Source: Desulfobacter postgatei 2ac9
Lineage (GTDB): Bacteria; Desulfobacterota; Desulfobacteria; Desulfobacterales; Desulfobacteraceae
Length of the DNA: 64,000 nucleotides
NCBI RefSeq assembly: GCF_000233695.2
Contig: NZ_CM001488.1
Location: 140,549 to 204,548 of the forward strand
Direction of reading: 5' to 3'
The translations under genes and the position numbers were made by a program. Position 1 is the stretch's first letter. Each line of letters opens with the position of its first letter. The notes beneath the pieces were generated by a model. That model was not told the origin of the DNA. It saw nothing but the letters and a program-made list of their open reading frames with translations, and did no database searches. Positions 4,480 to 40,023 of the stretch are shown here, piece after piece.

Positions 4480-6345
4480 GTCGAGTAGCCCGAGGGAACC
4501 ACCCCCTCAGGCCCTCACAGAACCGGACGTGAACGTCTCCGCTCATCCGGCTCCTATTGACCAGCCTATGCATAGAGTAGTCTCCAATGGGCAAACAAAT
4601 TTGGCTGTCTTCGTGCAATTCGAGCCAGCCACTGACTTGCCCTTCGTCGATGTCCCCTAAAACGTTTGTATTTCCTTGTTGCCCAAATCACCAACCGGCG
4701 ATCCAGGCACCTTAAGGCCGGGTAGAGTGCAGATTTATAAAACCTGCCATAGTAGTTAATCCAACCTTGAATGACAGGATTGAACATGTGGGCTAAATCT
4801 TCCAGGCTCTTGTCACTGCGCCTGGGCCAATTCCACTTTCGTGAGGTTTGCCGAATTGCTTTTGCTGCTTTATTGCTGACAGCAGGAGAAAAATTAATGA
4901 AGAATTTTCCCCATCGGTTCTTTGATTTCCGAGCACGAAATGTATAACCCAGAAAATCAAAACTTGTCAGGGCATAATCCTTTTGCCGGTCTGTATCCTT
5001 GCAGTAGACTATTTTCGTCTTCTCCGGATGTAATTCCAGTCCCACATTCTCCATTCGCTCATTCAGCTTTCTAAGCAAATATTCAGCCTGGGCAAGGCTT
5101 TTACAATGGCACACTGCATCATCCGCATAACGCTCAAACGGTGTGGCCGGGCACTGCCTTTCCATCCAGTTGTCAAATGCATAATGCAAAAAGAGATTGG
5201 CCAGCAAGGGACTGATAACACCTCCTTGCGGGGTTCCCTTCTTTGGATGGAATAGTGTGTGGTCTGTCATCATCACAGGGGCTTTCAGCCACCGTTCTAT
5301 ATACAGAAGCACCCATCTGTCATCCGTGTGATACCGAACTGCTTTCATCAAAAGATCATGGTCAATATTATCGAAAAATCCTTTAATATCAAGATCCAAT
5401 ACCCAGTCATATTTCCAGCAATTCTCCCGGGCTTTCCCAACTGCATCCAAAGCAGATTTCTCCGGTCGATAGCCATACGAATCCGGATGAAAATGTTTTT
5501 CCAATTCCGGCTCCAATTGCTGTTTGACTATCTGCTGAGCGATTCTGTCCGACACTGTCGGTATTCCCAACGGCCTCATTCGACCGTCTCCCTTGGGTAT
5601 TTCCACCCTCATTACCGGAGGAGGGAAATAACTGCCGGAGGACATCCGATTCCAGAGCTTGTAAAGATTGTCCTTTAAGTTAGACTCAAACTCTTCGATT
5701 GACTGTCCGTCTACACCGGCAGCCCCTTTGTTGGCTTTAACCCGTTCATATGCCTCCATAACCTCAAGTTTAGGAATACAAAACGGCTTTGCTTGGTTCA
5801 ATCCAATCCTCCTGTTTCCAGTTGTTTTCTTTACTTCAAGCTGGTCAATGCTTCCCCTTCGCTCCAATTCCATTACAGAATCTTCATCACTACTACGGGT
5901 CGCTCCGCCCCTGTGCCCTGCATCGGTACTCTCATACTTACGGGTCCTCCGCTTGTATTTCTCCCTTAGCATCAGGGCGACAGGTTCCCACGTTCCACAC
6001 AAAAGCCTGTCCCAAGTTCACGCCACCTTTATGCCGGAGGCCGCCCGGCCAGTAAACAGGTAACCGCCGAACTTATCCCGGGTTAACGACTACCCCCCGG
6101 TTTTGACCTCATCCCTACGCTTTCGACACTTCAATAGTGATTCACTTGCGTTCGTCTCCTTGGAACCTACCTGACAAGATCTTGTCCTGCCTTTTCCGTA
6201 ACGCTCACCACCCCGGCTCTTAACCGGCGCAGCTTACGGTGGTTTGAAGCCTCCACCTGCATGGCGGCTTCGAGGGGCCTTCCCTCATCTTTTGTGCAGC
6301 ATGGCTGCACTGTTTATTGCAACAGTGTCTGCCTTCGTGGCACAC
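4480..6345 (-). mobile_element. Group II intron (1866 nt) with encoded maturase
   Basis: On the minus strand the element opens with GTGTGCCACGAAGG, fitting the GUGYG consensus for a group II intron 5' end. Near the other end (plus positions about 4519-4552) lies a typical domain V hairpin, starting AGCCGGATGAGCGGAGA and closing with TCCGGTTCT, followed by a domain VI-like stem and an end at CTACTCGAC. The intron interior carries a reverse transcriptase gene. Removing bases 4480-6345 joins GATGACT to TATCAAAT in the same frame, so splicing would restore the FapA-like host gene. The exact 3' end could be three bases further into the exon, which would also keep frame. Confidence 0.9.
4566..6002 (-). 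CDS. ltrA: Group II intron reverse transcriptase/maturase
   Basis: A 478-residue intron-encoded protein. The reverse transcriptase domain shows GVDGQSIEEF, the first catalytic aspartate region VLDLDIKGFFDNIDH (about 201-215), GTPQGGVISPLLANL (about 256-270) and the active-site box FERYADDAVCHC with YADD at 292-295. A maturase domain X follows (MFNPVIQGWINYYGRFYKS, after 400). No HNH endonuclease domain is present after domain X, so this is an endonuclease-minus type that would depend on replication forks or pre-nicked DNA for retrohoming. The start is uncertain; internal methionines at 11 or 44 are alternatives. The domains look intact. Confidence 0.93.
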   Translation of the reverse strand: MCGTWEPVALMLREKYKRRTRKYESTDAGHRGGATRSSDEDSVMELERRGSIDQLEVKKTTGNRRIGLNQAKPFCIPKLEVMEAYERVKANKGAAGVDGQSIEEFESNLKDNLYKLWNRMSSGSYFPPPVMRVEIPKGDGRMRPLGIPTVSDRIAQQIVKQQLEPELEKHFHPDSYGYRPEKSALDAVGKARENCWKYDWVLDLDIKGFFDNIDHDLLMKAVRYHTDDRWVLLYIERWLKAPVMMTDHTLFHPKKGTPQGGVISPLLANLFLHYAFDNWMERQCPATPFERYADDAVCHCKSLAQAEYLLRKLNERMENVGLELHPEKTKIVYCKDTDRQKDYALTSFDFLGYTFRARKSKNRWGKFFINFSPAVSNKAAKAIRQTSRKWNWPRRSDKSLEDLAHMFNPVIQGWINYYGRFYKSALYPALRCLDRRLVIWATRKYKRFRGHRRRASQWLARIARRQPNLFAHWRLLYA

Positions 6346-6817
6346 AGTCATCACCATATCTATTAAATAAATTCTGCTCCTTGAGGATCAGATCTTTTTG
6401 TTTGATTGTTAAAATCCTGGTTTCAACAAGAATGTCACCGATAAGTTTTTTATGTCGTGACTTTTTAAATACCTTTCTTTGTAATTCCAATGCCTGATTG
6501 ATATCTTCCGTGGTGGCAAGGCCTTTTTCAATGGCAATTTTACCGAATTCTTCGCCGCTTTTGCGAACAATAAGGTACTCCTGAATCAGCTTAAGCAACC
6601 CAAGCTGATAGGGCGTTGCCATGCCTTCATCACGTAACAGATCCTCATAACCGGCCTGCCCGTTTTTAAAGGTGAAAAGTTGTATCAGGTACCCATGCTG
6701 ATCCTGGGAGATGGTTCCGTACTTTACTGCAAGATCTGCCAATGTCGGAATATTATTGGCCTGTTCCGCATTGATTTTGTTTACGTCACTTCTCAATTCC
6801 CACCCTGGCCGCAACAC
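6346..6817 (-). CDS. DUF342/FapA-like protein, 5' exon
   Basis: The upstream exon of the intron-split FapA-like gene. It reads from a GTG at 6817 (or a nearby TTG) and contains two helical repeats resembling the N-terminal domain of type II secretion ATPases (TLADLAVKYGTISQDQ; IGDILVETRILTIKQKDLIL), which often precede DUF342. It ends at GATGACT, directly against the intron. The first 32 bases overlap the 3' end of the corrinoid adenosyltransferase gene, suggesting translational coupling. Full function depends on intron splicing; without it, translation would run about 11 codons into the intron and stop. Confidence 0.75.
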
Positions 6818-7298
6818 CTTGTTGATAATAATGTTTAATTTCTCTCATTTCCGTTACAAGATCTGCTTTATCGATAACGGCAGCAGGAGCGCCGCGTCCG
6901 GTCAAAATAAGTTCAGTATGCTCAGGTTTTATATCAATCATATGTAATAGGTCTTCCTCTGAAAGTAAACCGCATAAACAGGCGACATTGGCCTCCTCAG
7001 CGATAACAAGATCATGTTGTCCGGCTTCAATGATGCTGCATAACCGTTTATACCCTTGCCGGCATTTGGCTCTCTCTGCATCAGACGGTTTGCCTTTAAC
7101 AAATTGCCCGGCACCATATTGTTCAACAAAGATATTATCGAACTTTTTAAGTGCGTTTATTTCAGAATAGAGGCCGTTTTTCATAAACTGAATAATGAAA
7201 ACCCCAAGCCCGGCACCGGCCGCCCTGACTGCGATACCGATAGCGGCGGTTGTTTTCCCTTTACCATTGCCCGTGTAAACCTGAACGTAACCTTTCAC
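6786..7298 (-). CDS. cobO: Cob(I)yrinic acid a,c-diamide adenosyltransferase
   Basis: A 170-residue CobA/CobO/BtuR-type enzyme that transfers the 5'-deoxyadenosyl group from ATP to cobalt of corrinoids, making adenosylcobalamin precursors. The P-loop GNGKGKTTAA is at residues 11-20; the family motifs FIIQFMKNG, EEANVACLCGLL and LILTGRGAP follow. Length is normal. It is transcribed toward the FapA-like gene and overlaps its start. An intrinsic terminator between it and the ATP-citrate lyase genes indicates a separate transcript from acl. Confidence 0.93.
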   Translation of the reverse strand: MKGYVQVYTGNGKGKTTAAIGIAVRAAGAGLGVFIIQFMKNGLYSEINALKKFDNIFVEQYGAGQFVKGKPSDAERAKCRQGYKRLCSIIEAGQHDLVIAEEANVACLCGLLSEEDLLHMIDIKPEHTELILTGRGAPAAVIDKADLVTEMREIKHYYQQGVAARVGIEK

Positions 7299-7320
7299 GA
7301 AACCGCTCCTTTGAAAACAA

Positions 7321-7359
7321 AAAAACTGAGCAAGTTCGTTAAAACTTAGCTCAGTTTTT
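7321..7359 (-). terminator. Intrinsic terminator of the ATP-citrate lyase operon
   Basis: A hairpin with outer arms AAAAACTGAGC (7321-7331) and GCTCAGTTTTT (7349-7359), inner arms AAGTT/AACTT and one bulged base. A-rich sequence on the left and a T-run on the right let it work on either strand; on the minus strand it lies between the stop of the large lyase subunit and cobO. A second hairpin, GAAAGTTA/TAACTTTC (7374-7395), sits just before it. Confidence 0.75.
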
Positions 7360-7414
7360 TTGTAGATCTTAAAGAAAGTTAAAAAACTAACTTTCCCTTA
7401 AAAACAATTGGATG

Positions 7415-10135
7415 TTAGCCAACAAATTCAACCTGGCTTGCAGGCGTACGGCAATCCATGATCATACCGCGAGCTTTGTGGTCAGCAATTTCAGCAGAGC
7501 AACCCACCATACGACCAAGCAGGAACAAGATAAATGCGATATCCTGCATAGCTTTGGCATCAATTTTTCCGCTGTTTACATCTTTCCAGAGCAGGTCAAG
7601 GGAGATGGTTGCGATAACGCCATCAATATTCACGCAGAATACGTTCTTGGTAGCGCCAACTTCAAACATCGCTTTAACCAGGTGATGATAGAATACCTGG
7701 AAGTGGTTGATCTCGTTTCTTTCAGCGAACAGTTTGTCCATGAAAACTTCACGCGGATCGTAGTTAACCGGTTTTCCTTTGAATACAGGATGGTTTACGC
7801 ACGGTACCTTGAAGTAGTTCATAATACCTTCGCGTTTTGCCGTTTGTTTGGTGCTCAGGTATTTTTCTGCAGTGGCCTGGGCAATCGCTTTCATCTTGGC
7901 ATCGCGCTTGGCGTCATCGGGTTCCAGGTACGGATCAAAGTCACCAAAGGCATCTTTGAGGAACTTGATGGCTTCAAAACCGTTGCCGCCATGGTCACGA
8001 CCGGTGTTGTTCATCCAGCCGGAGTAGCATGTAGCGATATAGTTACCGCCACTGACGGATTCCTTGGCACCCTTGGCACTGATGGTGCCCGGGCCGTTGG
8101 ACATCAGCAGGTTGAGCAGGCCGTTGGTGGCAAACTGTTCTCTTGCATTGCAATCACGGTTGAACAGCAGTTTAAAGCAGGTTGTTGCAAAGTCAGTATT
8201 CAGCACGGACAGATCGCTGAGTTCTACCAAGGATTTGTAGAAATCGTTGACCTCATACTGGGGTGCGCAGCAACCGACAAGGACGCCGTTGCATGCCAGA
8301 TATGTAGCAACTTCATGAGCGGTTTCACGGGTCATCTGCCTGTCAACCAGAGGCGTCCAGATAACGCTTAAGCTCATGGCAGCCAGAAGCAGGCTGAGTT
8401 TGTTTACATCACTGTTTGCTTCGGCATATTTCTGGGCATATTTGGTGAAGATGGTTTCCAAACCTTCTTTGGCCAGCAGTTTACCGAAGAATGCAGCAAC
8501 TTCTGCTTCTTTAGCTGTTGTTTCACCCTGGGGCATAATCTTCTGTGCCACTTTTTCAGCAACAAGCGTATCGTTTACAGAAGCATCGCCAAAGATATCG
8601 ACATAGAAAAGATCGATCATTTTTTGGGTCATCTCTGTCATGTCTTGATACAGCTTGCAGTTACCGGATGTTAAGACTGCAGCGCCAAGATAAGCGTTAG
8701 GCAGGGCGCCATTAGCGCGGGCACGGGCGGTAATATCCATGTACTGCGTACCCACAGCTGTAAAATAGTTCATTATGGCATTGGCTAGCGGCAGATATTT
8801 CTCATCGGGCATTACAGAAGATACGGCAAAGAAGTTGGAAAGGGCAAAGTGTTTTACAACAAGATCAAGAACCGGAACACCATGTACTTCGGTAACGTCG
8901 GTTTTCGAATTCATGCGGCTTGCGCCGGACTTGTTGCGCATGGATTCTCTGGTCAGCTGGGCACCCACCTGATTACCAAGTTTTTTGATGGCATCGTTGT
9001 AGGGTTCCATGGCTTCAACGGCAGCCATTTTCAGTTTTGCAGGAAGATCCAGGCCCTGATCATTTACAAACCAGGGTTTCAGGCTCAAGTCGCCTTTGGG
9101 TGGGAAATCGCTATTTTCACCGATCTCTTTGTAAACAGCGGCCATAGCTGTCGGCGCATCCTGGATGGATTCAATTCTGACACCCTTTTTGGACGCTTTG
9201 GGTTTGTCAGGGTTGAACATCTCAACACCAAAATATGAATCAAACCATTTCTCTTTTGCAAGGGCATCATCACCGCCACCGGCAATGGCGCCGGCATGAC
9301 CAACCGCGCGGCTCAGGTTTGCTTTCCAGCGACCGGTTACGCAAGCTACGATGGGTTTGGTCAGCTTGATGGTGCCGTCGGCAATCCAGTCAAGGGCCAT
9401 TTTTTCGTAATATCCGCCGGGCTCAATATAGCAGAAGATCGCTTTGGTACGCGGATCATTTTCTGCGCAATAGAGGAATTCAGGGAAGGCAAAGTGGATA
9501 TAAAGGTCTTTACCGGAACTCAGTACGGTGGATGTACCGAAACCGGCAGTCTTCAGGTATTCAGGGATGGTGGTACTGAAGTTACCGGAGTTACTGAAAA
9601 CAGCAACGCTGCCTTTTACAAGGGATTCACCCGGGTTGTTACCACCCAGGGCGCCACCAACACGTACCTGGTCCCAGGAGTTGCCGATACCCAGGCAATT
9701 TCCGCCAAATACGTCAATTTTATGTTCCTGTGCGATGGCGCGGATAAACGCAGCATCTTTTACACCGACTTTTTCAGTCAAAATAACGATTTTTTTCAGG
9801 TCGGGATTCTGGGCGATCAGCTCGGCAGCTGCGGCTGCAACTGCTGTGGGCGGCAGGTAGATAACACCTGTATCAAATTTGATACCGGCGTCAATAATCT
9901 CTTTAATACTGCCGTATGCAGGGATATCACCGATTTTGGTTTCCAGTTTTCCACCGGATTTTCCGTATTGAACACCAGCAACAATGTTACCGCCGCTGAA
10001 TTCGTGTGATGTGGGGGTTACGCCTTTACTTTCACCACCCAGAAGGTTCATCACTACGCACCGGGTCTCTTTATTTGCTATTTCTTCTAGATTATTTACT
10101 CCCACGTAGTAGGGGAAGGGATTAGTTTGGCTCAT
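7415..10135 (-). CDS. aclA: ATP-citrate lyase, large (CoA-binding/citrate synthase-like) subunit
   Basis: A 906-residue protein with a succinyl-CoA synthetase alpha-like half (CoA-binding fold; FGGNCLGIGNSWDQ, VFSNSGNFSTT) whose phosphohistidine loop VGHAGAIAGG places the catalytic His at about residue 280. The rest, from about residue 420, is a citrate synthase/citryl-CoA lyase-like domain with the conserved TGRDHGGNGFEA and CVNIDGVIA segments. The enzyme interconverts citrate, ATP and CoA with acetyl-CoA, oxaloacetate, ADP and phosphate; in Desulfobacter it is known to work toward citrate synthesis during acetate oxidation. It is about 300 residues longer than the roughly 610-residue large subunit of green sulfur bacteria. 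It lies 109 bases downstream of the ATP-grasp subunit gene, same strand. Confidence 0.9.
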   Translation of the reverse strand: MSQTNPFPYYVGVNNLEEIANKETRCVVMNLLGGESKGVTPTSHEFSGGNIVAGVQYGKSGGKLETKIGDIPAYGSIKEIIDAGIKFDTGVIYLPPTAVAAAAAELIAQNPDLKKIVILTEKVGVKDAAFIRAIAQEHKIDVFGGNCLGIGNSWDQVRVGGALGGNNPGESLVKGSVAVFSNSGNFSTTIPEYLKTAGFGTSTVLSSGKDLYIHFAFPEFLYCAENDPRTKAIFCYIEPGGYYEKMALDWIADGTIKLTKPIVACVTGRWKANLSRAVGHAGAIAGGGDDALAKEKWFDSYFGVEMFNPDKPKASKKGVRIESIQDAPTAMAAVYKEIGENSDFPPKGDLSLKPWFVNDQGLDLPAKLKMAAVEAMEPYNDAIKKLGNQVGAQLTRESMRNKSGASRMNSKTDVTEVHGVPVLDLVVKHFALSNFFAVSSVMPDEKYLPLANAIMNYFTAVGTQYMDITARARANGALPNAYLGAAVLTSGNCKLYQDMTEMTQKMIDLFYVDIFGDASVNDTLVAEKVAQKIMPQGETTAKEAEVAAFFGKLLAKEGLETIFTKYAQKYAEANSDVNKLSLLLAAMSLSVIWTPLVDRQMTRETAHEVATYLACNGVLVGCCAPQYEVNDFYKSLVELSDLSVLNTDFATTCFKLLFNRDCNAREQFATNGLLNLLMSNGPGTISAKGAKESVSGGNYIATCYSGWMNNTGRDHGGNGFEAIKFLKDAFGDFDPYLEPDDAKRDAKMKAIAQATAEKYLSTKQTAKREGIMNYFKVPCVNHPVFKGKPVNYDPREVFMDKLFAERNEINHFQVFYHHLVKAMFEVGATKNVFCVNIDGVIATISLDLLWKDVNSGKIDAKAMQDIAFILFLLGRMVGCSAEIADHKARGMIMDCRTPASQVEFVG

Positions 10136-10244
10136 AGCGTCTCCAATAAAATGATTTATTTTCTGGTTAATTTGCTAAAATGCTTTTGATTTATAATTAA
10201 ATCGTCAGATTACCTTTGACCTTTGTTTTTGGTTCAGCAATTAA

Positions 10245-11474
10245 TTATTTTTTATTTGCTGTAATCCATGCATCCAGTTCCAGGGTGTAATTCAATACAC
10301 CAATCATACTACTGTCGAAACCGAACATTTTGTAAGGAACTTTCATACTGTCAAGAAGGTCACGGGCATAAATCATTCCCTGCACGACGTTTGGTCCACC
10401 ACGACCGATTATAACGTGAACATTAGGATTCAGATGAATGTTTTCTCTCAGGGCATCCAGCATCGCTTTGATGGTAACGAAAATATCGGTATTGTTAGCT
10501 TTACCACCAATAATCTGAACAATGTTGGCATTCTTCAGAAAGTGCTTGTAGCAAATGCTTGCAATCTCTTTCATCTTTGCATAGGGCGGGTTTCCACCAA
10601 AGTCAGATGAAAACATTGCTTTGTCGCCCAGAACCTCAGTGGCAGCACTGTTGGCACCACCGCCGAACATGAAGGGCAGGATGGTTCCGTTGGGGTTAAG
10701 TTCCACAACGTCGCTCTGTCCCTGATAGGTTCTCAGCTGGTTGATTTCAGTTTCGAATTCGGTCAATTCCGTAGCAAATACTTCATTGGGGAATTTGATG
10801 CGGGTATGTGCGGGATCGTCCTGATCAAAAGCGGCTTTAACGTCGCAGGCAACCGGAACGGGACGTTTGCCTTTTTGCATACGAATGGGGTTGATCTCAA
10901 TCATGGTCAGACCATAATTGTTATAAAGATCCCACAGTTTGGGAATCTGCTGTACCAGCGGACTGATGAAGGCTTTGGGGCATCCCAGTTTGATCAGGGC
11001 ATCATTCACATGATAACCTCTGAGGCCTTCATTGGGGTTAAACGGAATGATCGCTTTTTTCTCGGGCGGCAGCTCTTCAACTTCAACACCACCTTCAACA
11101 ATCAGCAGCATGGTCGGCGTTCTGGTGATTGTAGATGTTGTAATACTTACATAAAGCTCTGAATCTGATGCGACAAATTCTTCAAATGTGCAGCCGTTTG
11201 CCTTATGTGTTGTATTGCCCTGCTTATATTCGGCAAAGCAAAGATCTTTTCTGGCCTGGTTGGCGTCTGCATAGTTGTCGACAATTTTTACCAGCCCTGC
11301 TTTTCCTTTTTTACCGGCACTGCCCATGAAAGACGGTTTTACAACGACTTTGCCGCCTTTTTTGATCAGCGCTTCAATCTGTTCTTTGGTAGCATTTTCT
11401 GTCAGGGTCTCTGCTACAGGGAAATCAACGATATCCATCAATTGCTTTCCGTATTTTAATCCAGTTAGTTGCAT
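10245..11474 (-). CDS. aclB: ATP-citrate lyase, small (ATP-grasp) subunit
   Basis: A 409-residue protein related to succinyl-CoA synthetase beta and to the N-terminal part of animal ATP-citrate lyase. Visible features are the ATP-grasp lysine region KVVVKPSFMGSAGKKGKAG, the metal-binding segment MIEINPIRMQKG, and the C-terminal ligase fold with FGGGANSAATEV and IGRGGPNVVQG. It phosphorylates citrate through the phosphohistidine of the large subunit. A good ribosome-binding site (GGGAGGA) precedes the ATG at 11474. It is the first gene of the operon, about 310 bases from the predicted promoter. Confidence 0.92.
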   Translation of the reverse strand: MQLTGLKYGKQLMDIVDFPVAETLTENATKEQIEALIKKGGKVVVKPSFMGSAGKKGKAGLVKIVDNYADANQARKDLCFAEYKQGNTTHKANGCTFEEFVASDSELYVSITTSTITRTPTMLLIVEGGVEVEELPPEKKAIIPFNPNEGLRGYHVNDALIKLGCPKAFISPLVQQIPKLWDLYNNYGLTMIEINPIRMQKGKRPVPVACDVKAAFDQDDPAHTRIKFPNEVFATELTEFETEINQLRTYQGQSDVVELNPNGTILPFMFGGGANSAATEVLGDKAMFSSDFGGNPPYAKMKEIASICYKHFLKNANIVQIIGGKANNTDIFVTIKAMLDALRENIHLNPNVHVIIGRGGPNVVQGMIYARDLLDSMKVPYKMFGFDSSMIGVLNYTLELDAWITANKK

Positions 11475-11789
11475 TTTTCCTCCCTGATAATGTAGTGAAT
11501 TTAATTAAAAAGAACTTCTCAATTCATTCGATATTACCAACAGACTTCAATCTTAACATCCTGCTCTCTTACGAAAACAAAATGCTGATTATTTTCGAAC
11601 ACCTAACTTGACCTTACTGCAATATCATCCATTCAAATATTGCATTCAGGAATCGTTAGTTGCTCCTTCTCGTCGCAAGTAAGGTTTAAAGCTCCCCCTA
11701 AACGTCTTCCCACACCAAGCCCTCCTTTCTGTTTGGGATTTGAATAAATTTAAACAGTCGTTTTAAAGATCTCTTATCAAGTTTAAGTC

Positions 11790-11819
11790 TATATAGGATA
11801 GGAACTTCCGTTTTGTCAA
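11790..11819 (-). promoter_or_regulatory. Predicted acl operon promoter
   Basis: On the minus strand: TTGACA (11819-11814), an 18-base spacer, then TATATA (11795-11790). The spacer contains TTCCTATCC directly before the -10 box. The same 9-mer sits in the same place in the predicted aconitase promoter at 37934-37963; the two 30-base cores agree at 24 positions. The predicted transcript start is about 310 bases from the aclB start codon. Confidence 0.65.
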
Positions 11820-11999
11820 TAGGATAGTGTAGCCAAAATTCACCACCAAAATTTAATATGTTTCCATAAAAAAACGAACAGGTGGCAGTCATGGGGTTTT
11901 AGCCTTATTTAAAATAAATAATTTGTTAGCTCATAAAAACTATCATTTGGCATTATTGTTTTGTTTCTCGATACAGTTATCATCTTTATGCCGACGGCA

Positions 12000-12039
12000 A
12001 TTGTGAAATGGATTGCCTGATTGTGCAATGGATTGCCTG
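12000..12039. repeat. Tandem 20-bp duplication
   Basis: Two adjacent copies of a 20-base unit (ATTGTGAAATGGATTGCCTG and ATTGTGCAATGGATTGCCTG) differing at one base. It lies in noncoding DNA between the acl promoter and hisS; no function apparent. Confidence 0.8.
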
Positions 12040-12342
12040 AATTAATTAGTTTAGCAAGATATACAGACAGATCTGTTAAGGGAATGGAACCACTTAATGT
12101 TTTTTCTTTTTCATTCCTGAATGATAACATGCATAGTGACATATTTGGTTGCACTCGTTGGTGGTGGCTTTTTTGAACTCAAAGCCACTATAGCGGCTCG
12201 ATCTATCAAGCGCAACAAAAATTTTTATTTTTTTAACCGTGGGGTGGACTGCCGTATCCGTTAACTTTCAAGGCTCGGGAAATCATCCAACGAATATTGA
12301 CCCGTTCGCCTTGATGGCCAATATCCGACCTTTTATTATATG

Positions 12343-12372
12343 TTGACTAAGACGCTGATTTTAAACTATATA
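12343..12372 (+). promoter_or_regulatory. Predicted hisS promoter
   Basis: TTGACT (12343-12348), an 18-base spacer and TATATA (12367-12372), ending about 55 bases before the hisS start codon. Near-consensus for the housekeeping sigma factor. It lacks the TTCCTATCC spacer motif seen in the acl and aconitase promoters. Confidence 0.6.
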
Positions 12373-12426
12373 GATCGGCTGTATATTTTTTTAGAAATGA
12401 ACGTAAAAGGTTAAAGATATAAAAGC

Positions 12427-13683
12427 ATGCAGACCATACGTGGATTCAGAGACATTTTACCGGAACAAATTGCTCTGTGGCAAAAGGTGGAACAAGAAGC
12501 GGCAGCCCTGTTTGAATCCTTTGGATACAGGGAAATCCGTATCCCTATTGTGGAAAAGACAGCGCTGTTTGCCCGGAGTATTGGAGAAACGACCGATATT
12601 GTCGAAAAGGAGATGTATACCTTTGAAGACAGAACAGGGGATATGCTCACACTGCGGCCCGAGGCCACAGCATCCATTTGCAGGGCATATATCCAACATA
12701 AAATGTATGCTGCCGAACCGGTACGCAAGTTTTATCTGACAGGCCCCATGTTTCGCAGAGAGCGGCCGCAAAAGGGTCGCTATCGCCAGTTTTACCAGAT
12801 TGATGCAGAGGTTTTTGGGGTTGAATCCCCTTATATTGACAGTGAACTGATTTTTCTCTTACACACCTTGCTGCGCCGCCTCGGGCTTGAAGGCCTTTCG
12901 GCCCATATCAACAGCCTTGGCTGCCCCGTCTGCCGTCCTGATTTTCAAAAAGCCCTGCTCGATTTTTTAGGCGAGCGAAAAGACAATCTGTGTGAGAACT
13001 GCAAACGCAGGCTGGTTAAAAATCCGCTGCGGATACTGGACTGTAAAGTAGAAACATGCAGGCAGGCCCTTGAGGGCTCGCCTGCCACAGTGGATCACCT
13101 GTGCCCGGACTGCCGTACCCATTTTGAAACCGTGAAAACCAGTCTTGAAAAACTTGGTGTGGATTTCATGATTGACGACACCCTGGTTCGTGGACTTGAC
13201 TATTATACCCGTACCGCCTGGGAGGTTCAGACCACAACGCTTGGTGCCCAGTCCGCCGTTGCCGGCGGCGGCCGGTACGATCGTCTGGTGGAAGAGCTCG
13301 GTGGGCCTTCAACACCGGCCATCGGCTTTGCCATCGGCTTTGACCGTCTGGTGGAAGTTATGGAACAACTTGACACCCAGGTGTGTGAAAAGGGCCCGGA
13401 CCTTTTTATTGTCAGCCTGGGAGCAGATGCCCAGGCATATGCATTTGAATGGTCCTGCAGACTGAATACCATGGGCATAAGAACAGATTCGGATTTCCGT
13501 GGAAAAAGCATGAAAGCGTTGATGAAACGGGCAAACAAGGTTAATGCCGCTTTTGTTCTCATTATCGGGGACAATGAACTTGCCCAAAAAAAACTTGTTC
13601 TGCGCAATATGGCTACCAAGGAACAAACGGAAATCGGCCTGGATAATCTGGTGAATGATTTGGCACAATTAATTAAAAATTAA
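12427..13683 (+). CDS. hisS: Histidyl-tRNA synthetase
   Basis: A 418-residue class II aminoacyl-tRNA synthetase that charges tRNA-His. It starts with the usual MQTIRGFRDILPEQ, has motif 2 around FYLTGPMFRRERPQKGRYRQFYQ, the histidine-binding LVRGLDYYTRTAWEV, and motif 3 at AIGFAIGFDRLVEVM, followed by an anticodon-binding domain. Length is normal. aspS follows 26 bases later, so the two are probably co-transcribed from the promoter at 12343. Confidence 0.97.
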   Translation: MQTIRGFRDILPEQIALWQKVEQEAAALFESFGYREIRIPIVEKTALFARSIGETTDIVEKEMYTFEDRTGDMLTLRPEATASICRAYIQHKMYAAEPVRKFYLTGPMFRRERPQKGRYRQFYQIDAEVFGVESPYIDSELIFLLHTLLRRLGLEGLSAHINSLGCPVCRPDFQKALLDFLGERKDNLCENCKRRLVKNPLRILDCKVETCRQALEGSPATVDHLCPDCRTHFETVKTSLEKLGVDFMIDDTLVRGLDYYTRTAWEVQTTTLGAQSAVAGGGRYDRLVEELGGPSTPAIGFAIGFDRLVEVMEQLDTQVCEKGPDLFIVSLGADAQAYAFEWSCRLNTMGIRTDSDFRGKSMKALMKRANKVNAAFVLIIGDNELAQKKLVLRNMATKEQTEIGLDNLVNDLAQLIKN

Positions 13684-13709
13684 TATAGTTATGGAGTTTA
13701 AGAATTAAA

Positions 13710-15497
13710 GTGACTGATTTACTTGGAGATATGAAACGCACACACTCCTGCATTGAGTTGGGAGACAGCCACATTGGTCAGGACGTCGTACTCATGGGGT
13801 GGGTTCAGCACCGCCGGGACCACGGCGGCGTTATTTTTGTGGACCTTCGGGACCGGGAAGGCATTACTCAGATTGTATTTGATCCGTCGTTCTCCGCGAA
13901 TGTCCATGAAAAAGCCCAGGAAATCAGAAGCGAATATGTCCTGGGCATCAAAGGAAAAGTGTCGGCAAGACCTGATGACATGGTCAACCCCAGGATGACC
14001 ACCGGTGCCATAGAGGTGCTTGTGGACGAGCTGCGGATTTTTTCCAGGGCCAAAACACCGGCCTTTCAGATTGAAGACCGGGTTGATGCATCGGAAACCA
14101 TACGACTCCAGTACCGTTATCTGGATTTAAGGCGTACCCAGCTAAAAAACAATATCCTGGCCCGTCACAAAACCACCATGACCGTTCGAAATTATCTGGA
14201 CGCCCAAGGGTTTGTGGACATTGAAACCCCGTTTCTAACCAAAAGTACGCCCGAAGGCGCCAGGGATTATCTGGTCCCCTCCCGGGTTAACCAGGGCGAT
14301 TTTTACGCCCTGCCCCAGTCTCCCCAGCTCTTCAAACAGCTTTTGATGATTTCCGGCTTTGACCGGTATTACCAGATTGTCAAATGCTTCAGGGACGAGG
14401 ACCTGCGGGCGGATCGCCAGCCCGAGTTCACCCAGATCGATATGGAACTCTCCTTTGTGGATGAACACCAGGTGATGGAAATTAGCGAAGGATTGATCAA
14501 GGCCATATTCAAAAAGGTGCTGGATTTGGACTTCCCCGAACCTTTCCCCAGCATGACCTGGGCCGAGGCCATGGACCGGTTCGGGTTAGACCGTCCTGAT
14601 TTAAGGTTTGGCCTGGAATTGAAAAATGTCTCCGATATTGTGGCCAATGCGGACTTCAAAGTGTTTGCCTCTGTGGTTAAAAACGGCGGCCTGGTCAAGG
14701 CCATCAATGTCAAGGGCTGTGCAGATTTTACCCGAAAACAGATTGATGAACTCACCGAATTTGCAGCCGTTTACAGGGCCAAGGGCCTTGCCTGGATAAA
14801 AATAAAAGACGATCAGTGGCAGTCCCCCATTGCAAAATTCTTCTCTGATGATGAAAAAGAGGCATTGAAGAAACGCCTGGATCTTGAACCCGGTGATATT
14901 GTCTTTTTTGTGGCAGATCAGCCCAAAATCACCAATGAGGCCCTGGGTCAGTTGAGAAACGAGTTGGCACGCAGACTTGGGCTCATTGATGACAGTGAGT
15001 TCAAATTTACCTGGATCACCCATTTTCCGATGTTTGAATATGATGAAACGGAAAAACGCTACCAGGCGCTTCATCATCCGTTTACCGCACCCACGGAATC
15101 GGACCTGGACAAACTGGAGACCACTCCCCTGGAAGTTAACTCCCGGGCCTATGACCTGGTTCTCAACGGTGTTGAAATCGGCGGCGGCAGTATCCGTATC
15201 CATGACAGCAAACTGCAGCAACGGGTCCTCAAATGCTTAGGAATCGGTGAGGAAGAAGCAAAGGAGAAGTTCGGGTTCCTGCTGGAAGCCCTGACGTTTG
15301 GCGCACCTCCCCACGGCGGGCTGGCATTTGGCCTGGATCGTCTGGTTATGCTGCTTTGTCGTGAGGATTCCATCCGCAATGTCATTGCCTTTCCAAAAAC
15401 CCAGAAAGCCACCTGCCTGATGACGCAGGCGCCCTCAAAAGCTGCGGCGGCCCAGCTCCAGGAGCTGGCCATTAAAACGGTAAAGCCACTGGATTAA
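13710..15497 (+). CDS. aspS: Aspartyl-tRNA synthetase
   Basis: A 595-residue bacterial-type AspRS: N-terminal OB-fold anticodon-binding domain (VLMGWVQHRRDHGGVIFVDL), catalytic core with motif 2 FRDEDLRADRQPEFTQID, the bacterial GAD insertion, and motif 3 GLAFGLDRLVMLLC near the C-terminus. The frame opens at a GTG at 13710; an ATG seven codons later (13731, MKRTHSCIEL) is an equally good start. Aminoacylates tRNA-Asp (possibly also tRNA-Asn in organisms lacking AsnRS). Ends just before an intrinsic terminator. Confidence 0.97.
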   Translation: MTDLLGDMKRTHSCIELGDSHIGQDVVLMGWVQHRRDHGGVIFVDLRDREGITQIVFDPSFSANVHEKAQEIRSEYVLGIKGKVSARPDDMVNPRMTTGAIEVLVDELRIFSRAKTPAFQIEDRVDASETIRLQYRYLDLRRTQLKNNILARHKTTMTVRNYLDAQGFVDIETPFLTKSTPEGARDYLVPSRVNQGDFYALPQSPQLFKQLLMISGFDRYYQIVKCFRDEDLRADRQPEFTQIDMELSFVDEHQVMEISEGLIKAIFKKVLDLDFPEPFPSMTWAEAMDRFGLDRPDLRFGLELKNVSDIVANADFKVFASVVKNGGLVKAINVKGCADFTRKQIDELTEFAAVYRAKGLAWIKIKDDQWQSPIAKFFSDDEKEALKKRLDLEPGDIVFFVADQPKITNEALGQLRNELARRLGLIDDSEFKFTWITHFPMFEYDETEKRYQALHHPFTAPTESDLDKLETTPLEVNSRAYDLVLNGVEIGGGSIRIHDSKLQQRVLKCLGIGEEEAKEKFGFLLEALTFGAPPHGGLAFGLDRLVMLLCREDSIRNVIAFPKTQKATCLMTQAPSKAAAAQLQELAIKTVKPLD

Positions 15498-15521
15498 GGA
15501 AGAAGGGTGAAAATTTAAAAC

Positions 15522-15548
15522 CGCCCGGAAACAAATTGTTTCCGGGCG
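15522..15548. terminator. Bidirectional intrinsic terminator between aspS and minE
   Basis: A perfect 11-base inverted repeat (CGCCCGGAAAC / GTTTCCGGGCG) with a five-base loop between the convergent aspS and minE genes. A-rich flanks on the left give a U-run for minus-strand transcripts. Confidence 0.8.
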
Positions 15549-15627
15549 AAAATTCAAGCAAGACCAGAATTAAGAGCAGGAAAAAGGCAACCCGATCAGG
15601 TAACGCATCTGAAATAGAGTGTATGGA

Positions 15628-15894
15628 TCAGGCCTGTTTTCTTTTCACGTGGAGAATAGGGGTGTTAAACACAAGGGCAGAGACCTGGTTGTCATTTTTT
15701 ACCTTAAGCTCCAATGCATCTCTATCAATTTCAAAATATTTTGATATCACATTAACGATATCCGTCTGAAGATCAGTCAAAATAGTGTCGTTCACTTCAA
15801 GTTTGTCGTAAACTAAAGAAAATTGAAGACGCTTTTTTGCTTCGTCACTACTTCTTTTCTGGCCTCTGAACCGTCTCAAAAATTCTTGCAGCAT
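15628..15894 (-). CDS. minE: Cell division topological specificity factor MinE
   Basis: An 88-residue MinE. The N-terminal amphipathic/anti-MinCD part includes RLQFSLVYDK and the C-terminal dimerisation domain carries LQTDIVNVISKYFEIDRDALELKV. It stimulates MinD ATPase and drives pole-to-pole oscillation so that the Z-ring forms at mid-cell. It lies 10 bases after minD and is the last gene of a five-gene transcription unit. Confidence 0.95.
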   Translation of the reverse strand: MLQEFLRRFRGQKRSSDEAKKRLQFSLVYDKLEVNDTILTDLQTDIVNVISKYFEIDRDALELKVKNDNQVSALVFNTPILHVKRKQA

Positions 15895-15904
15895 TCAATT
15901 CTCC

Positions 15905-16699
15905 TTATCTTAACCCAAAAGTTTTACTCAATTTGCGCCATACACTGGTTTTTCGGTTCGGTACCTCAATGGGAACATCTTCGCCATTGAGACGTTTAGC
16001 AATCCTGCGAAAGGCCTGTCCGGCGATAGAATCATTCTGAAGCACCAGGGGCGTACCGGTGTTGGAGGATATGAGAACCTTTTCATCCATGGGCACAAGT
16101 CCTGCCAGCTCAATTGACAATATATCCAGCACATCTTCATGGCTGAGCATTTCACCACGTTCCACACGCATCGGCTCTATACGGTTGACAACAAGCTTGG
16201 GCTCTATAGAGCGCGCATACAACAGGCCGATAACCCGATCTGCATCCCTGACGGCGGAGACATCCGGGGTGCAGATCACAATCGCTTCATTGGCGCCGAC
16301 CGTGGCGTTTTCAAACCCTCTTTCAATTCCGGCCGGAGAATCCATGATCACATAATCAAATTTTGTGCGCAAATCGTTGGCCACCTGTTCAACTCCTTCC
16401 GGTGTCAGCACATCTTTATTATCACTTTGGGAGGCCGGGATTAGAAAAAGATTGTCAATACGTCTGTCCCGAATGGCTGCCTGGTCAATCTTGCATCGGC
16501 CCTGGACCACATCTACAATATTAAAAACAATCCGATTTTCCAGGCCCATGACCACATCAAGGTTGCGCAGTCCGATATCCATATCCACAATGGCGACCCT
16601 TTTTCCTTCAAGAGCCAGGGCCGCGCCAATGGAAGAGGTCGCTGTTGTTTTTCCCACGCCGCCCTTTCCAGATGTTACGACAATAATTTTTCCTTCCAA
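15905..16699 (-). CDS. minD: Septum site-determining ATPase MinD
   Basis: A 264-residue ParA/MinD ATPase. The deviant Walker A motif KGGVGKTTATSS is at residues 12-23, followed by VDMDIGLRNLDVVMGLE and the switch II segment VIMDSPAGIERGFENA. The C-terminal end (RKTSVWRKLSKTFGLR) is positively charged and suited to membrane targeting. Binds the membrane as an ATP dimer and recruits MinC. Spacing to minC is 33 bases. Confidence 0.97.
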   Translation of the reverse strand: MEGKIIVVTSGKGGVGKTTATSSIGAALALEGKRVAIVDMDIGLRNLDVVMGLENRIVFNIVDVVQGRCKIDQAAIRDRRIDNLFLIPASQSDNKDVLTPEGVEQVANDLRTKFDYVIMDSPAGIERGFENATVGANEAIVICTPDVSAVRDADRVIGLLYARSIEPKLVVNRIEPMRVERGEMLSHEDVLDILSIELAGLVPMDEKVLISSNTGTPLVLQNDSIAGQAFRRIAKRLNGEDVPIEVPNRKTSVWRKLSKTFGLR

Positions 16700-16732
16700 A
16701 ATTACACCTCAATAATTATGATTGTTTTTTCT

Positions 16733-17422
16733 TTAAATCACTTCCGGCCAGGGCATCCGTTTAAACGGATTTTCTTTCATATAATTTTTAACCACAATGC
16801 CCCCCTGCTCCACACACGCAAATTCGGGACCCTGCCTTCCTGACTCGCCGGCTCCGGTGGCTGTTATCAGTCCTATCTTTACCAAACTTGGATTAAATGC
16901 CAGGGAGAATATCATGGCCCCATTATTTTCCGGGTATCCTGCATGGACTTTTCCTGTCAGAGTCCCGAGCACTATAATGTCGCCGCCTGCGGTAAGCTCT
17001 GCACCCGGGTTCACGTCTCCTGTAATTACCAGATGTTTTTTGGCATTGATTTTCTGACCCGAGCGTACCCTGCCCCTGAGCATAAGCACGTCACTTTTAT
17101 GATGGTTCCAGCCCTTGGACAGATCCCTTTGACGGCGCCGTTCGGTGGGAATGGAGCGTTTTTTGGGGGAAGTCGAAATAGTGCCGAGCTCAAAATCGCG
17201 TTCAAGGTGTGATTTTATCCTGTCAATCAGTTCCTCCTGCCCGCTTGCATCACCGATATCAAGGGTCACATCTGCATTTATGGCCAGATGTTTGAGTTTG
17301 TCCAATAATCTGTCAATTTCAGCAATGATTTCAGACTCCGGGTGGGAGGGGTCTATGGTAATCCATAACCCGCTACCGGCACCTTTGAGTTTGACAGGAG
17401 CGGTGTTATCAAAATTTATCAT
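16733..17422 (-). CDS. minC: Septum site-determining protein MinC
   Basis: A 229-residue Z-ring inhibitor. The C-terminal half is the beta-helix domain that binds MinD and FtsZ (VRSGQKINAKKHLVITGDVNPGAELTAGGDIIVLG, shown here only in part as GDVNPGAELTAGGDI). The N-terminal domain is divergent, which is common. Its start codon overlaps the stop of the upstream hybrid histidine kinase by four bases (ATGA at 17419-17422), so translation of the Min proteins is probably coupled to the kinase. Confidence 0.92.
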   Translation of the reverse strand: MINFDNTAPVKLKGAGSGLWITIDPSHPESEIIAEIDRLLDKLKHLAINADVTLDIGDASGQEELIDRIKSHLERDFELGTISTSPKKRSIPTERRRQRDLSKGWNHHKSDVLMLRGRVRSGQKINAKKHLVITGDVNPGAELTAGGDIIVLGTLTGKVHAGYPENNGAMIFSLAFNPSLVKIGLITATGAGESGRQGPEFACVEQGGIVVKNYMKENPFKRMPWPEVI

Positions 17423-18570
17423 TCAAGGATCTCTCTTAATTTATGTGAAAAATCCACCACGGAATAGGGTTTGAGAATATATCCCTTGCAACCCTGCCTG
17501 AGCATTTCCTGGGCATTTTCATCAATAGCATATCCTGTGGAGAGCAGAACCTTAATATCGGGGTTAAGTTTTTTCAACGCCATAAAGACATCCAGCCCAT
17601 CCATGCCCGGCATGATCATATCCAGAACCACAATATTTATGTCGTTCTTTTTTTCTGCGTAGATTTTTAAGGCATCCTTGCCGGAAGCGGCTGTGAAAAC
17701 CGTATAGCCCAGGGCCTTGCATATTGTACGTCCAACGTTGAGAATGCGCTGTTCATCATCCACCAGAAGCACGCACTCATGGCCAAGCTTCAGTTCTTCC
17801 TGGGCAGACGGCAGGTCATCTATGTGGTGGTTGTCCTCTGCCAGGGGGAGAATAACGGAAAAAGAAGAACCGACATTTAAAGAACTCCATACATCAATGA
17901 CGCCCTTGTGATGTCTTACAATTTTCTTGGCAAAAGTAAGACCCAGCCCCTTTTTTTCGGGGAACTGGTTATGGTTGTGGGAATAAAAGGCTTTGAATAT
18001 TTTTTCCAGGGTGGCGCTGTCCATGCCGATACCCGTATCGGATATGGTAATTTTACAAAAAAAACCCGATTCCAATCCAAAGGCGTCTGCCGTACCATTA
18101 AGAATTGCGGCAGCTTCCGTGCGCACGGAAAGTTTGCCCCCTTCGGGCATGGCCTGCAATGCATTATTGACTATGGCGGTGACCACCTGTTTAATTTTTT
18201 CAGGATCGCCTTTGATAATTAAAGGCTTAGCATGCAGACTTACATCCAGGATGATCCGGAGTCCCTTCATATTCAGGGTTTCCAACACAGAGCGAACCAG
18301 CCTATTGACATCCATGCGTGTTAAATAGACCTCATCGGCCATGGCAAAGCCGAGCAGTTGGTTGGCAAGATCAGAGCCCTTGTCAACGCTGGACAAAATT
18401 TCAATAATATGGCCGTAGAGCGGGTCTGTGGGATTCACATTATTCAGCATCAAAGAGGCATGCCCCTTGATGGCGGTCAACAGATTGTTTACGTCATGGG
18501 CAATGCCGTTGGCAAGCGCCTCCACAGCATCTGTTTTCTCAAACTGGGTTGCAGTTGTAATATGTTCCAT
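17419..18570 (-). CDS. Sensorless hybrid histidine kinase with receiver domain
   Basis: A 383-residue protein that begins almost directly with a dimerisation/phosphoacceptor domain (ALANGIAHDVNNLLTAI, His25), then an HATPase domain (IVNNALQAMPEGG, DTGIGMDSATLEKIFKAFYSH, GLGLTFAKKI), then a receiver domain (CVLLVDDEQRI; phospho-Asp in VVLDMIMPGMDGLDVF near 313). No transmembrane, PAS or GAF input region precedes the histidine, so a signal must come through a partner protein. It follows a NarL-type regulator by 36 bases and overlaps minC by ATGA. Confidence 0.9.
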   Translation of the reverse strand: MEHITTATQFEKTDAVEALANGIAHDVNNLLTAIKGHASLMLNNVNPTDPLYGHIIEILSSVDKGSDLANQLLGFAMADEVYLTRMDVNRLVRSVLETLNMKGLRIILDVSLHAKPLIIKGDPEKIKQVVTAIVNNALQAMPEGGKLSVRTEAAAILNGTADAFGLESGFFCKITISDTGIGMDSATLEKIFKAFYSHNHNQFPEKKGLGLTFAKKIVRHHKGVIDVWSSLNVGSSFSVILPLAEDNHHIDDLPSAQEELKLGHECVLLVDDEQRILNVGRTICKALGYTVFTAASGKDALKIYAEKKNDINIVVLDMIMPGMDGLDVFMALKKLNPDIKVLLSTGYAIDENAQEMLRQGCKGYILKPYSVVDFSHKLREILE

Positions 18571-18606
18571 TCAGTCCGTATCCTGGTGTATCGTCCTTGC
18601 CGGTGT

Positions 18607-19257: not shown

Positions 19258-19340
19258 ATGGCTCCAAAATATTTTATCAAAGTCTATATTGAAGATTGAT
19301 TAAAATCAAATATTAATTAAATTATCTTTGCACTAAAAAG

Positions 19341-19366
19341 CTGCGGTTGAGTCCGCAATTTTTTTT
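19341..19366. terminator. Terminator-like hairpin between divergent genes
   Basis: TGCGG (19342-19346), loop TTGAGT, CCGCA (19353-19357), followed by a run of T on the plus strand and flanked by AAAAAG on the left. It lies about 100 bases upstream of both the response regulator (minus) and aroB (plus). Where a promoter would be expected instead, it could be an attenuator in one leader or a leftover terminator; I cannot tell which. Confidence 0.5.
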
Positions 19367-19469
19367 AGTTTGCCCATACCCGCGAATATTGTTAAAAACA
19401 TATGGAACTAAAAATAATATTAACTGAAGAAAATGAATACCAACCAGACCATTTCCCAAGGTAAAAAAT

Positions 19470-20507: not shown

Positions 20508-20581
20508 TATTCGTTAAAAAAGAGTAACTTTGGTTGCGGTAACTCACCGCATATAAACAAGGAATGAAGGAGATTGAAATT

Positions 20582-21157: not shown

Positions 21158-21172
21158 TCGAAAAGTCCCAAG

Positions 21173-21215
21173 TAGGGATGCGCTTTGTTCTTTTGTTTGG
21201 CAAGGCGCATCCCTA
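21173..21215 (+). terminator. Intrinsic terminator after rubrerythrin
   Basis: Inverted repeat TAGGGATGCGC (21173-21183) / GCGCATCCCTA (21205-21215) with a 21-base loop, followed by a weak AAATTTT tail. Confidence 0.65.
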
Positions 21216-21313
21216 AATTTTAACAGCAATGCTGAATTTTGACGTCCCAAATTGACAAAACCCGATTATGAACTTATAGTTACGGCAATTTTAACCTAAA
21301 ATAGGAAATAGCT

Positions 21314-21640: not shown

Positions 21641-21651
21641 GGAGGTTTTCA

Positions 21652-22566: not shown

Positions 22567-22568
22567 AA

Positions 22569-23528: not shown

Positions 23529-23537
23529 TGTTTGAAC

Positions 23538-23770: not shown

Positions 23771-23788
23771 TTGTTGTTCAACCTTGGG

Positions 23789-37820: not shown

Positions 37821-37933
37821 TTAACCATTTGAAATTTAATATCAATTTATGAACGAGTGACATGGAATCCCCCTGTCCTTAAAGGCCATACACCAAACTT
37901 AATCATTTAATTTAATTATCCTTAATACTTTCC

Positions 37934-37963
37934 TTGACAAAAAGTATCTTCCTATCCTACATT
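37934..37963 (+). promoter_or_regulatory. Predicted aconitase promoter
   Basis: TTGACA (37934-37939), 18-base spacer, TACATT (37958-37963). The spacer ends in TTCCTATCC, identical in sequence and position to the predicted ATP-citrate lyase promoter at 11790-11819. Predicted transcript start is about 135 bases before the ATG. Confidence 0.65.
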
Positions 37964-38106: not shown

Positions 38107-40023
38107 ATGAGCGCTTTAAGTTTGACACATAAGATCCTCAAGGATCACCTGGTTGAACCTGCTGCATTGCCGGCACCCGGGGAATTGATCAAAATCAAGA
38201 TTGATGAAGCTTTCACCCAGGATGCCACCGGTACCATGTGTATGCTTCAGCTGGAAGCAATGGGTGTATCTAAAGTAAAGCCCCTTTCTGTGAACTTTGT
38301 TGATCACAGTATGCTTCAATCCGGTTTCAGAAACCCGGATGACCATCAGTACCTGAGAACGGTTGCCGCAAAACTCGGTATCATCTTCTCCCCCCCCGGA
38401 ACCGGTATCTGCCATTTCACAAACATGGAAAACTTTGTTAAACCCGGTATGACAGGTGTTGGCGCTGACAGCCATACCGTTAATGCCGGTGGTTGTAGTG
38501 CTATCTTCATGGGTGCAGGCGGATATGACGTTGCCCTGGCAATGGCTACCGGCATGTACACCATGCCCATGCCCAAGGTGACCAGGGTTAACCTGACCGG
38601 CAAACTGCCCAAAAACTGTATGGGCATGGATGTCATCCTGAAGATGCTCGAAATTGTATCCGTAAAAGGCGGCAAGGGCATTATCTTTGAATATGCAGGC
38701 CCGGGCGTTAAAACCCTCTCCTTGACCGAACGTGCCACCATCACCAACATGGGCGCTGAAATGGGTGCCACCACCTCTATCTTCCCCAGTGATGAAAACA
38801 CCAAGGCTTTCCTGGAAAGCCGCGGCCGCGGCGGCGACTACAAAGCAATGTCCGCAGACGAAGGCGCTTCCTATGACGCTGAAATCAATATTAACCTGTC
38901 TGAAATCGAACCGCTGATCGCCATCTATCCCTCTCCGGGCAATGTTGAAAAAGTTAAAGATCATGCCGGAACCAAAATTCACCAGGTTTGTATCGGTTCC
39001 TGCACCAACAGCTCTTTTGAAAACATCGCAACCTTTGCAGAAACGCTTAAAGGCAAACGTGTAAAGGTTGACACCCTGCTCTATCCCGGTTCCAGATCCG
39101 TTGCCATGCAGCTTGCAGACGCAGGGTACATCAAAATGATGTTCGCTTCCGGTGTCAGGATCATGGAAAATGGCTGTGGCGCTTGTATCGGCCAGGGCGG
39201 TTCCCCCCCAAGCGAAGGTATCACTCTGAGAACCTTCAACCGTAACTTCCCGAAACGTTCAGGAACAGACGATGCCAAGTGTCACCTGATCAGCCCGCTT
39301 GTTGCAGCTGCCAGTGCCCTGACCGGTGAAATCACCGTACCCGAAGCAAAAGACATTGCCATCAACGTCGTTCCGCCGGTTATCGACACCGATTCCTTTA
39401 TCATGCCGGATAAAGCCGACAAGTCCGAAGGCATTGTTCGCGGACCCAACATCATGGCTCTGCCTGAGTTCTCTCCCCTGCCCGACGTTGTAAAAGGCGA
39501 AGTTCTGCTGAAACTTGGCGACAACATCAGTACTGACGACATTCAGCCTGCCGGTGTATACCTGCCCCTGCGCTCCAATGTTAAAGAATACGCAATGCAG
39601 GCTACTTACAGACTGGTTGACGGCACCTTCGCAGAACGCGCTGTGGCTCACAGAGACGCCGGCGGAGAAGGCTTCATCATTGGTGCTGAAAACTACGGTC
39701 AGGGAAGTTCCCGTGAACATGCCGCACTTTGCCCAAGATGGCTTGGTATCCGCGCGGTTATCGTTAAATCTTTTGCCCGTATTCATGTGGCCAACCTGGT
39801 TAACTTCGGTATCGTTCCCATGACCTTCAAGAACCCGGCTGACTACGACAAGATCAAACAGGGCGATACGGTATCCTTTGATGCCAAAGATCTGGCCGGC
39901 GACCTGTTCCTTGAAGTCAACGGCCAAAAATTTCCGCTGGAACGCGCTTTTGACTTAGACGTGATCCCCACCCTGAAACTCGGTGGTGCTCTGGCTCAGT
40001 TTAAAGCAACCTTCAAGGGATAA
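38107..40023 (+). CDS. acnA: Aconitate hydratase
   Basis: A 638-residue aconitase that isomerises citrate and isocitrate in the citric acid cycle. [4Fe-4S] ligands are visible in CIGSCTNSSFEN and GCGACIGQGG; the substrate-binding region GVGADSHTVNAGG and the C-terminal swivel domain with GAENYGQGSSREHAA and IHVANLVNFGIVPM are intact. It is shorter than the roughly 890-residue AcnA of enterics and nearer the compact bacterial/mitochondrial-like form; the symbol follows fold, not sure orthology. Works next to ATP-citrate lyase in acetate oxidation. Codon use is that of a highly expressed gene. A terminator follows. Confidence 0.94.
   Translation: MSALSLTHKILKDHLVEPAALPAPGELIKIKIDEAFTQDATGTMCMLQLEAMGVSKVKPLSVNFVDHSMLQSGFRNPDDHQYLRTVAAKLGIIFSPPGTGICHFTNMENFVKPGMTGVGADSHTVNAGGCSAIFMGAGGYDVALAMATGMYTMPMPKVTRVNLTGKLPKNCMGMDVILKMLEIVSVKGGKGIIFEYAGPGVKTLSLTERATITNMGAEMGATTSIFPSDENTKAFLESRGRGGDYKAMSADEGASYDAEININLSEIEPLIAIYPSPGNVEKVKDHAGTKIHQVCIGSCTNSSFENIATFAETLKGKRVKVDTLLYPGSRSVAMQLADAGYIKMMFASGVRIMENGCGACIGQGGSPPSEGITLRTFNRNFPKRSGTDDAKCHLISPLVAAASALTGEITVPEAKDIAINVVPPVIDTDSFIMPDKADKSEGIVRGPNIMALPEFSPLPDVVKGEVLLKLGDNISTDDIQPAGVYLPLRSNVKEYAMQATYRLVDGTFAERAVAHRDAGGEGFIIGAENYGQGSSREHAALCPRWLGIRAVIVKSFARIHVANLVNFGIVPMTFKNPADYDKIKQGDTVSFDAKDLAGDLFLEVNGQKFPLERAFDLDVIPTLKLGGALAQFKATFKG

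Follow-up and report, generated by a model that had tools for sequence, protein, structure and literature searches.

The acl and acn promoters share a core

Why do the predicted promoters of the ATP-citrate lyase (acl) and aconitase (acn) genes of Desulfobacter postgatei carry nearly the same sequence? The window, the whole stretch of 64,000 nucleotides that was analysed, contains both. The acl core lies on the minus strand (11790..11819), with the -35 element TTGACA at 11819-11814, an 18-base spacer at 11813-11796 and the -10 element TATATA at 11795-11790. The acn core lies on the plus strand (37934..37963) and consists of TTGACA (37934-37939), a spacer (37940-37957) and the -10 element TACATT (37958-37963). 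A preliminary description of this DNA had claimed that 24 of 30 positions are identical between the cores, with TTGACA and an 18-base spacing in common, and that hisS has the same spacing but a different spacer end. Both statements were confirmed, the hisS promoter at 12343-12372 reading TTGACT-N18-TATATA without TTCCTATCC. Reading the bases directly, we found that the spacers of acl and acn both end in TTCCTATCC.

Judged by the sigma-70 criteria used here (TTGACA, a spacer of 16-19 bases, T at -12 and A at -11), the expected sequence features are present in acl and acn, with the T at -7 missing from the acl -10 element. The promoter scan covered 5000-24000 and missed the acl -10 element, because its rules accept only -10 elements that end in T. 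Promoters of RpoH-, FliA- and ECF-like sigma factors were considered and rejected, since their spacing did not fit in a comparison by hand with consensus sequences.

The first gene behind the acl promoter encodes the small subunit of ATP-citrate lyase, which is CoA-ligase beta-like (10245..11474, minus). The large subunit (7415..10135, minus) combines a CoA-ligase alpha-like with a citryl-CoA-lyase-like part. Both genes match CoA-ligase and citryl-CoA-lyase models with scores under the cut-offs, and their naming as ATP-citrate lyase therefore rests on domain architecture. The aconitase gene (38107..40023, plus) scores 756 bits with the NCBIfam model NF005558, for which the cut-off is 612. The start codon lies 319 bases beyond the motif in acl and 147 bases beyond it in acn. 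The acl leader, from promoter to start codon (11475..11789, minus), gave no Rfam match in the search of the window. Its alignment from 13 species folds at -35.0 kcal/mol, compared with a mean of -9.9 (sd 2.9) in 30 column-shuffled alignments. An invariant hairpin stands directly 5' of the ribosome-binding site, and changes on both sides were seen in only 1 of the 62 pairs of the fold.

Several other features of the region were noted. Group II intron matches, RF01999 (6169-6286) and RF00029 (4480-4555), both minus, flank long minus-strand ORFs, and a cobA-like ORF (6786-7298) adjoins this intron region (4480-6286). An IS1380-family transposase gene (36041-37402, plus) lies immediately upstream of the aconitase promoter. 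This element was rejected as an unlikely source of the acn site, because the site stands in all 14 aligned acn regions. The acl and acn promoters diverge and are separated by ~18 to 33 kb in nine genomes (G002, G004, G005, G013, G015, G016, G017, G018 and the window genome), and G009 is arranged differently from these nine. G004, G005, G009 and G015 have an extra motif site, which precedes a small basic ORF on the far side of acl at a distance of ~16 to 18 kb; the ORF in G009 (L037) had no Pfam match. In four members of the same genus group (G007, G010, G011, G014), acl-like matches are distant (E 1e-9 to 2e-12), acn-like matches have ~31-33% identity and the motif occurs at 0 or 1 site.

The shared motif is dispersed among unrelated genes

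The motif TTGACA-N9-TTCCTATCCTA has three exact matches in the genome (3,974,658 bases, single contig). When up to 3 mismatches were allowed, the whole genome yielded 16 matches and the reversed control 7; weak genome matches are thus largely noise. Within the 64-kb window, the same threshold recovered the acl and acn sites only; shuffled windows gave a mean of 0.14, and two sites were reached in 1 of 100. The search was extended to 40 genomes (our own and 39 relatives) at up to 1 mismatch, and gave 77 matches, compared with 2 for the reversed control; merging identical contexts also left 77 sites. The motif was present in 21 of the 40 genomes. In the alignment of sites, an acl site located at a contig end (L024) was tallied as 'other', and 36 of 40 picked sequences were used in the alignment for the motif model. 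The counts in the window and the 77 matches against 2 controls show that the match between acl and acn is not due to chance, and duplication of the genes, as the earlier description had stated, is not behind it either.

The same description had suggested co-regulation of the two citrate-forming or citrate-using steps by a factor that contacts the spacer, or a strong promoter type for central acetate oxidation. A TCA or acetate-oxidation regulon found no support: the third exact site (3482483) precedes a DNA-ligase ORF, which begins 112 bases downstream, and the genes behind the sites in relatives are mixed. The next four genome sites by score lie upstream of a CHASE4 sensor and of three ORFs whose N-terminal pieces gave no Pfam match. 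Pfam analysis of the downstream proteins in relatives, performed on N-terminal pieces for most, returned TetR_N, LolA_like, Phenol_MetA_deg, Peptidase_C14, HDOD, ACT, DUF4136 and Ion_trans_2, together with one weak sucrose-synthase match, and some pieces had no Pfam match. With no theme common to the genes downstream of the sites inspected, a regulon restricted to the TCA cycle was rejected. In L107 (G006:C8), the ion-channel ORF begins 10 bases past the motif, and its start codon would thus coincide with the predicted transcript start, as in a leaderless transcript. The expectation that the motif should not occur at random genome positions was borne out by half: the acl and acn sites are placed as promoters are, and dispersed repeat copies lie away from promoters.

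The motif matches the end of an IS91-like transposon

The aligned sites have ATACTTT in common, two bases 5' of TTGACA, and their conservation drops after CCTA, a part that the search pattern favoured. Several copies in G005, G013 and G016 sit at repeat edges, one of which was read as directly preceding the middle of a livF-like frame. A 16-base hairpin apex, CCACAACATGTTGTGG, was found at 10 places in 3 of the 10 genomes searched, in two families, and the motif followed 59-71 bases on in all 10 occurrences (for the hairpin at G117:C215:1935 the distance was taken on its neighbour, its own motif being seen in L213). Four copies have a common fixed 3' end and upstream extents that vary, the pairwise shared length ranging from 416 to 923 bases, and two of them (L267 and L259) retain part of a transposase. 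The boundary of the element coincides with the end of the motif. Matches to a profile built from eleven ends mostly stop at positions 96-100, and their starts are variable. In L115 (G005:C2:34651-38676), ~200 bases of foreign sequence interrupt one copy of the terminal hairpin at the apex.

A 465-residue frame in L342 matched the Pfam domains Y2_Tnp (2.2e-19) and Zn_Tnp_IS91 (2.8e-19), its own terminus falling below recognition with 6 mismatches, and L267 matched Y2_Tnp (2.1e-11). By its transposase domains and its fixed end, the source element belongs to an IS91-like (Y2) transposon subfamily of Desulfobacterales.

The link between transposase and terminus was also examined from the side of the protein. 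When 194 genomes from the order were searched with the transposase protein, 23 of them gave matches. Thirty loci were reduced to 20 by removal of 5 without a recognised transposase motif, 1 duplicate and 4 with less than 400 bases of flank; the 20 are distinct, each with a 3' flank of at least 1000 bases and a transposase motif that was recognised. Among these loci, fetched by transposase protein alone, 16 of 20 have the core AAAAAGCAAGTTCYTATC behind the gene at a distance of 272-638 bases, and none of 50 shuffles was as good. In one of the 16 (L344) the terminus comes after a second fragment, which lies on the opposite strand, and in 4 of the 20 loci the core was absent. At up to 3 mismatches, AAAAAGCAAGTTCYTATC was present in 14 of the 20 subfamily loci, whereas it was present in none of 30 other IS91-family loci collected with the general PF04986 profile. 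IS91 elements in general were rejected as the source, a test of 30 loci having found the motif in none. Divergent transposases adjoin motif-bearing repeats.

TTGACA precedes the terminus core in 0 of the 16 transposase loci, the closest sequence being TTTACA in L365. We conclude from these loci that AAAAAGCnAGTTCYTAT is the conserved end of the subfamily and TTGACA an addition. Across 84,980 species, TTGACAAAAAGNNNNTTCCTAT was found in 70 stretches, 52 of them in Desulfobacterales, 6 in unresolved proteobacteria and 12 in other taxa; 7 of these 12 lie inside ORFs, compared with 9 of the remaining 58. One of the 12, L269 from a Pseudodesulfovibrio bin, looks like a real copy.

The acl and acn sites as probable transposon termini

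The eleven-end profile matched the acn promoter over a stretch much longer than the core (37884..37958, plus; profile positions 26-100, nhmmer E 2.5e-5), and the acn promoter of G013 matched at positions 13-100 (E 1.9e-7). When a matrix of 30 mobile ends was used with its TTGACA columns masked, the acn site, which is outside the 30 training ends, scored 36.5 bits. No other place in the 64 kb exceeded 2.7, and ten shuffled windows reached 7.2 at best. The acl site was not among the best 8 window places of this matrix, because AAAAGC is a fixed part of the pattern with which the ends had been gathered. It matches the terminus over ~30 bases only, and its ATACT stands two bases further upstream than usual. 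Over the 18-base core AAAAAGCAAGTTCYTATC, the acl stretch at 11797..11814 (minus) agrees at 16 of 18 positions. At up to 3 mismatches this core occurs in the window at acl (2 mismatches) and acn only, and two window matches were equalled in 2 of 100 shuffles.

As judged from this homology, the acn promoter clearly represents a terminus of the IS91-like subfamily. The acl promoter very probably represents one too, a descent that we infer from the short match. The genome itself had no Y2_Tnp (PF04986) match, and the acl and acn sites are therefore relic ends at most. Three further ends, which lack TTGACA and were read as relics, lie at 2414639, 692830 and 3107602. Dispersal of a transposon end is the probable explanation of the likeness of the two promoters.

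Ends with TTGACA tend to stand before genes

To describe the ends independently of TTGACA, 116 genomes were searched with AAAAGCNNNTTCCTATC, which gave 100 matches compared with 4 for the reversed control, and 90 of the 100 were examined. TTGACA was present in 24 of these 90 ends. A promoter position was defined as one within 400 bases 5' of a co-oriented ORF, outside ORFs and with no transposase motif upstream. Such positions were occupied by 14 of the 24 copies with TTGACA and 16 of the 66 without (Fisher p 0.0047), and TA at -12/-11, at a 17- or 18-base spacing, was present in 15 of 24 and 12 of 66, respectively (p 1.4e-4); both p values are optimistic, because ORF calls were simple and orthologues were left uncollapsed. 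After TTCCTAT, CTGT follows in 16 of the 66 ends without TTGACA and CCTA in 10 of the 24 with it, the other ends being mixed. The simplest reading is that the ends retained would be those that happened to offer a -35 and -10 start before a gene.

Conservation of the two sites within Desulfobacter

The acl site stands at a fixed place in 13 of 13 aligned acl regions and the acn site in 14 of 14 aligned acn regions, each with at least one base change in some. Of the 26 motif columns, 23 are identical throughout the 13 acl genomes, compared with 33 of 100 columns upstream and 44 of 100 downstream. The 14 acn genomes have 20 of 26 invariant motif columns, compared with 5 of 100 upstream and 29 of 100 downstream. 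The -35 columns are invariant at 6 of 6 positions in both alignments, and invariant spacer columns (15 of 18 in acl, 12 of 18 in acn) exceed the flanks in both. Positions 3-6 of the -10 element are invariant at 4 of 4 in acl and 0 of 4 in acn.

The spacer columns conserved above their flanks would also be expected if the 35-base site were recognised by a transcription factor of the host, or by a special sigma factor, that controlled acl, acn and other genes, the element having acquired the site as an outward promoter. Sites that precede genes in G021, G026, G042 and G085, all with 0 Y2_Tnp matches, are consistent with such a factor. However, elements of other families end in the AAAAAGC..TTCYTAT core with TTGACA in 0 of 16, the motif stops where the element does and the downstream genes have no common theme, and we regard this alternative as unlikely. 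Alternatively, the sites could be transposon ends, with the working acl and acn promoters elsewhere in the leaders, which at 319 and 147 bases are long enough to suggest it. This is quite improbable given the -35 columns, invariant at 6 of 6 in both, the spacers conserved above the flanks and the acl -10 positions 3-6, invariant at 4 of 4; a neutral relic is unlikely because the -35 element, the spacer and the acl -10 element have been kept. That acl and acn have ordinary sigma-70 promoters, alike by convergence or chance, is scarcely credible: TTGACA and an 18-base spacing are common in promoters, as the TTGACT-N18-TATATA of hisS illustrates, but the whole-genome and control counts contradict it and the homology of the acn promoter reaches 37884.

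A model for the origin of the acl and acn promoters

To account for the observed sequence identity, dispersal, transposase link, conservation and promoter-like placement, we propose, with a probability of roughly three in four, that the acl and acn promoters come from two old IS91-like insertions that have been domesticated. The shared core would be the outward-reading, ori-IS-like terminus of the element, ATACTTT-n2-TTGACAAAAAGCnnnTTCCTAT followed by CCTA. One such terminus would have come to lie before acl and another before acn. The terminus would give the -35 element (TTGACA), and CCTA together with neighbouring DNA would complete a -10 element at 18-base spacing, which would let sigma-70 RNA polymerase transcribe outward into the gene. 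The domestication of both ends would predate the split of the sampled acl-bearing Desulfobacter species, with both ends kept since. From the sequences we infer transcription from the ends, and likewise the direction in which the element transposes, its target rule and the order of events.

Outward promoters at the ends of insertion sequences are mainly known from recent, selected cases, such as those of resistance genes. In hybrid promoters, the insertion sequence provides the -35 element and flanking DNA the -10 element. The Desulfobacter promoters would resemble these in taking the -35 element from the mobile element and the -10 element at least partly from flanking DNA. Hybrid promoter cases are recent and adaptive, whereas the Desulfobacter state has been kept through speciation.

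A closer parallel is ISCR1, an IS91-related element with outward promoters, POUT (PCR1-1 and PCR1-2), on its oriIS side, which were demonstrated by reporter fusions and -10 mutations (PMC6218425). In both systems, an element with an HUH transposase would carry outward promoters on the oriIS side with genes downstream; here the promoters are predicted from sequence. According to the same paper, ISCR1 itself is present beside resistance genes and its promoters lie within a 232-base oriIS region. In Desulfobacter, by contrast, the terminus alone is left, its terminal bases form the predicted promoter core, and the sites are old, conserved and located before core carbon genes. Among the paper titles listed in literature searches, none names a Desulfobacter acl or acn promoter or this IS91-like terminus.

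The conservation of the spacer exceeds what a bare promoter needs, and a factor that reads the spacer is therefore possible. It is conceivable, though doubtful, that the domesticated ends are more than bare promoters and that a DNA-binding factor, either of the host or descended from the transposase, recognises the spacer together with the ATACTTT box further upstream, giving a transposon-built regulon in Desulfobacterales. If this were true, repeated insertion of one end would have wired unrelated genes, including acl and acn, into one regulon.

The model that two insertions were domesticated bears on how core promoters may arise in this group. A terminus conserved by its element doubles as a predicted promoter core; one genus has retained it before two genes of core carbon metabolism, and the same terminus recurs before unrelated genes across an order. 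The share of core-gene promoters that descend from the ends of mobile elements thereby becomes testable, and the defined terminus offers a means of finding relics and predicting start sites in a major group of sulfate reducers.
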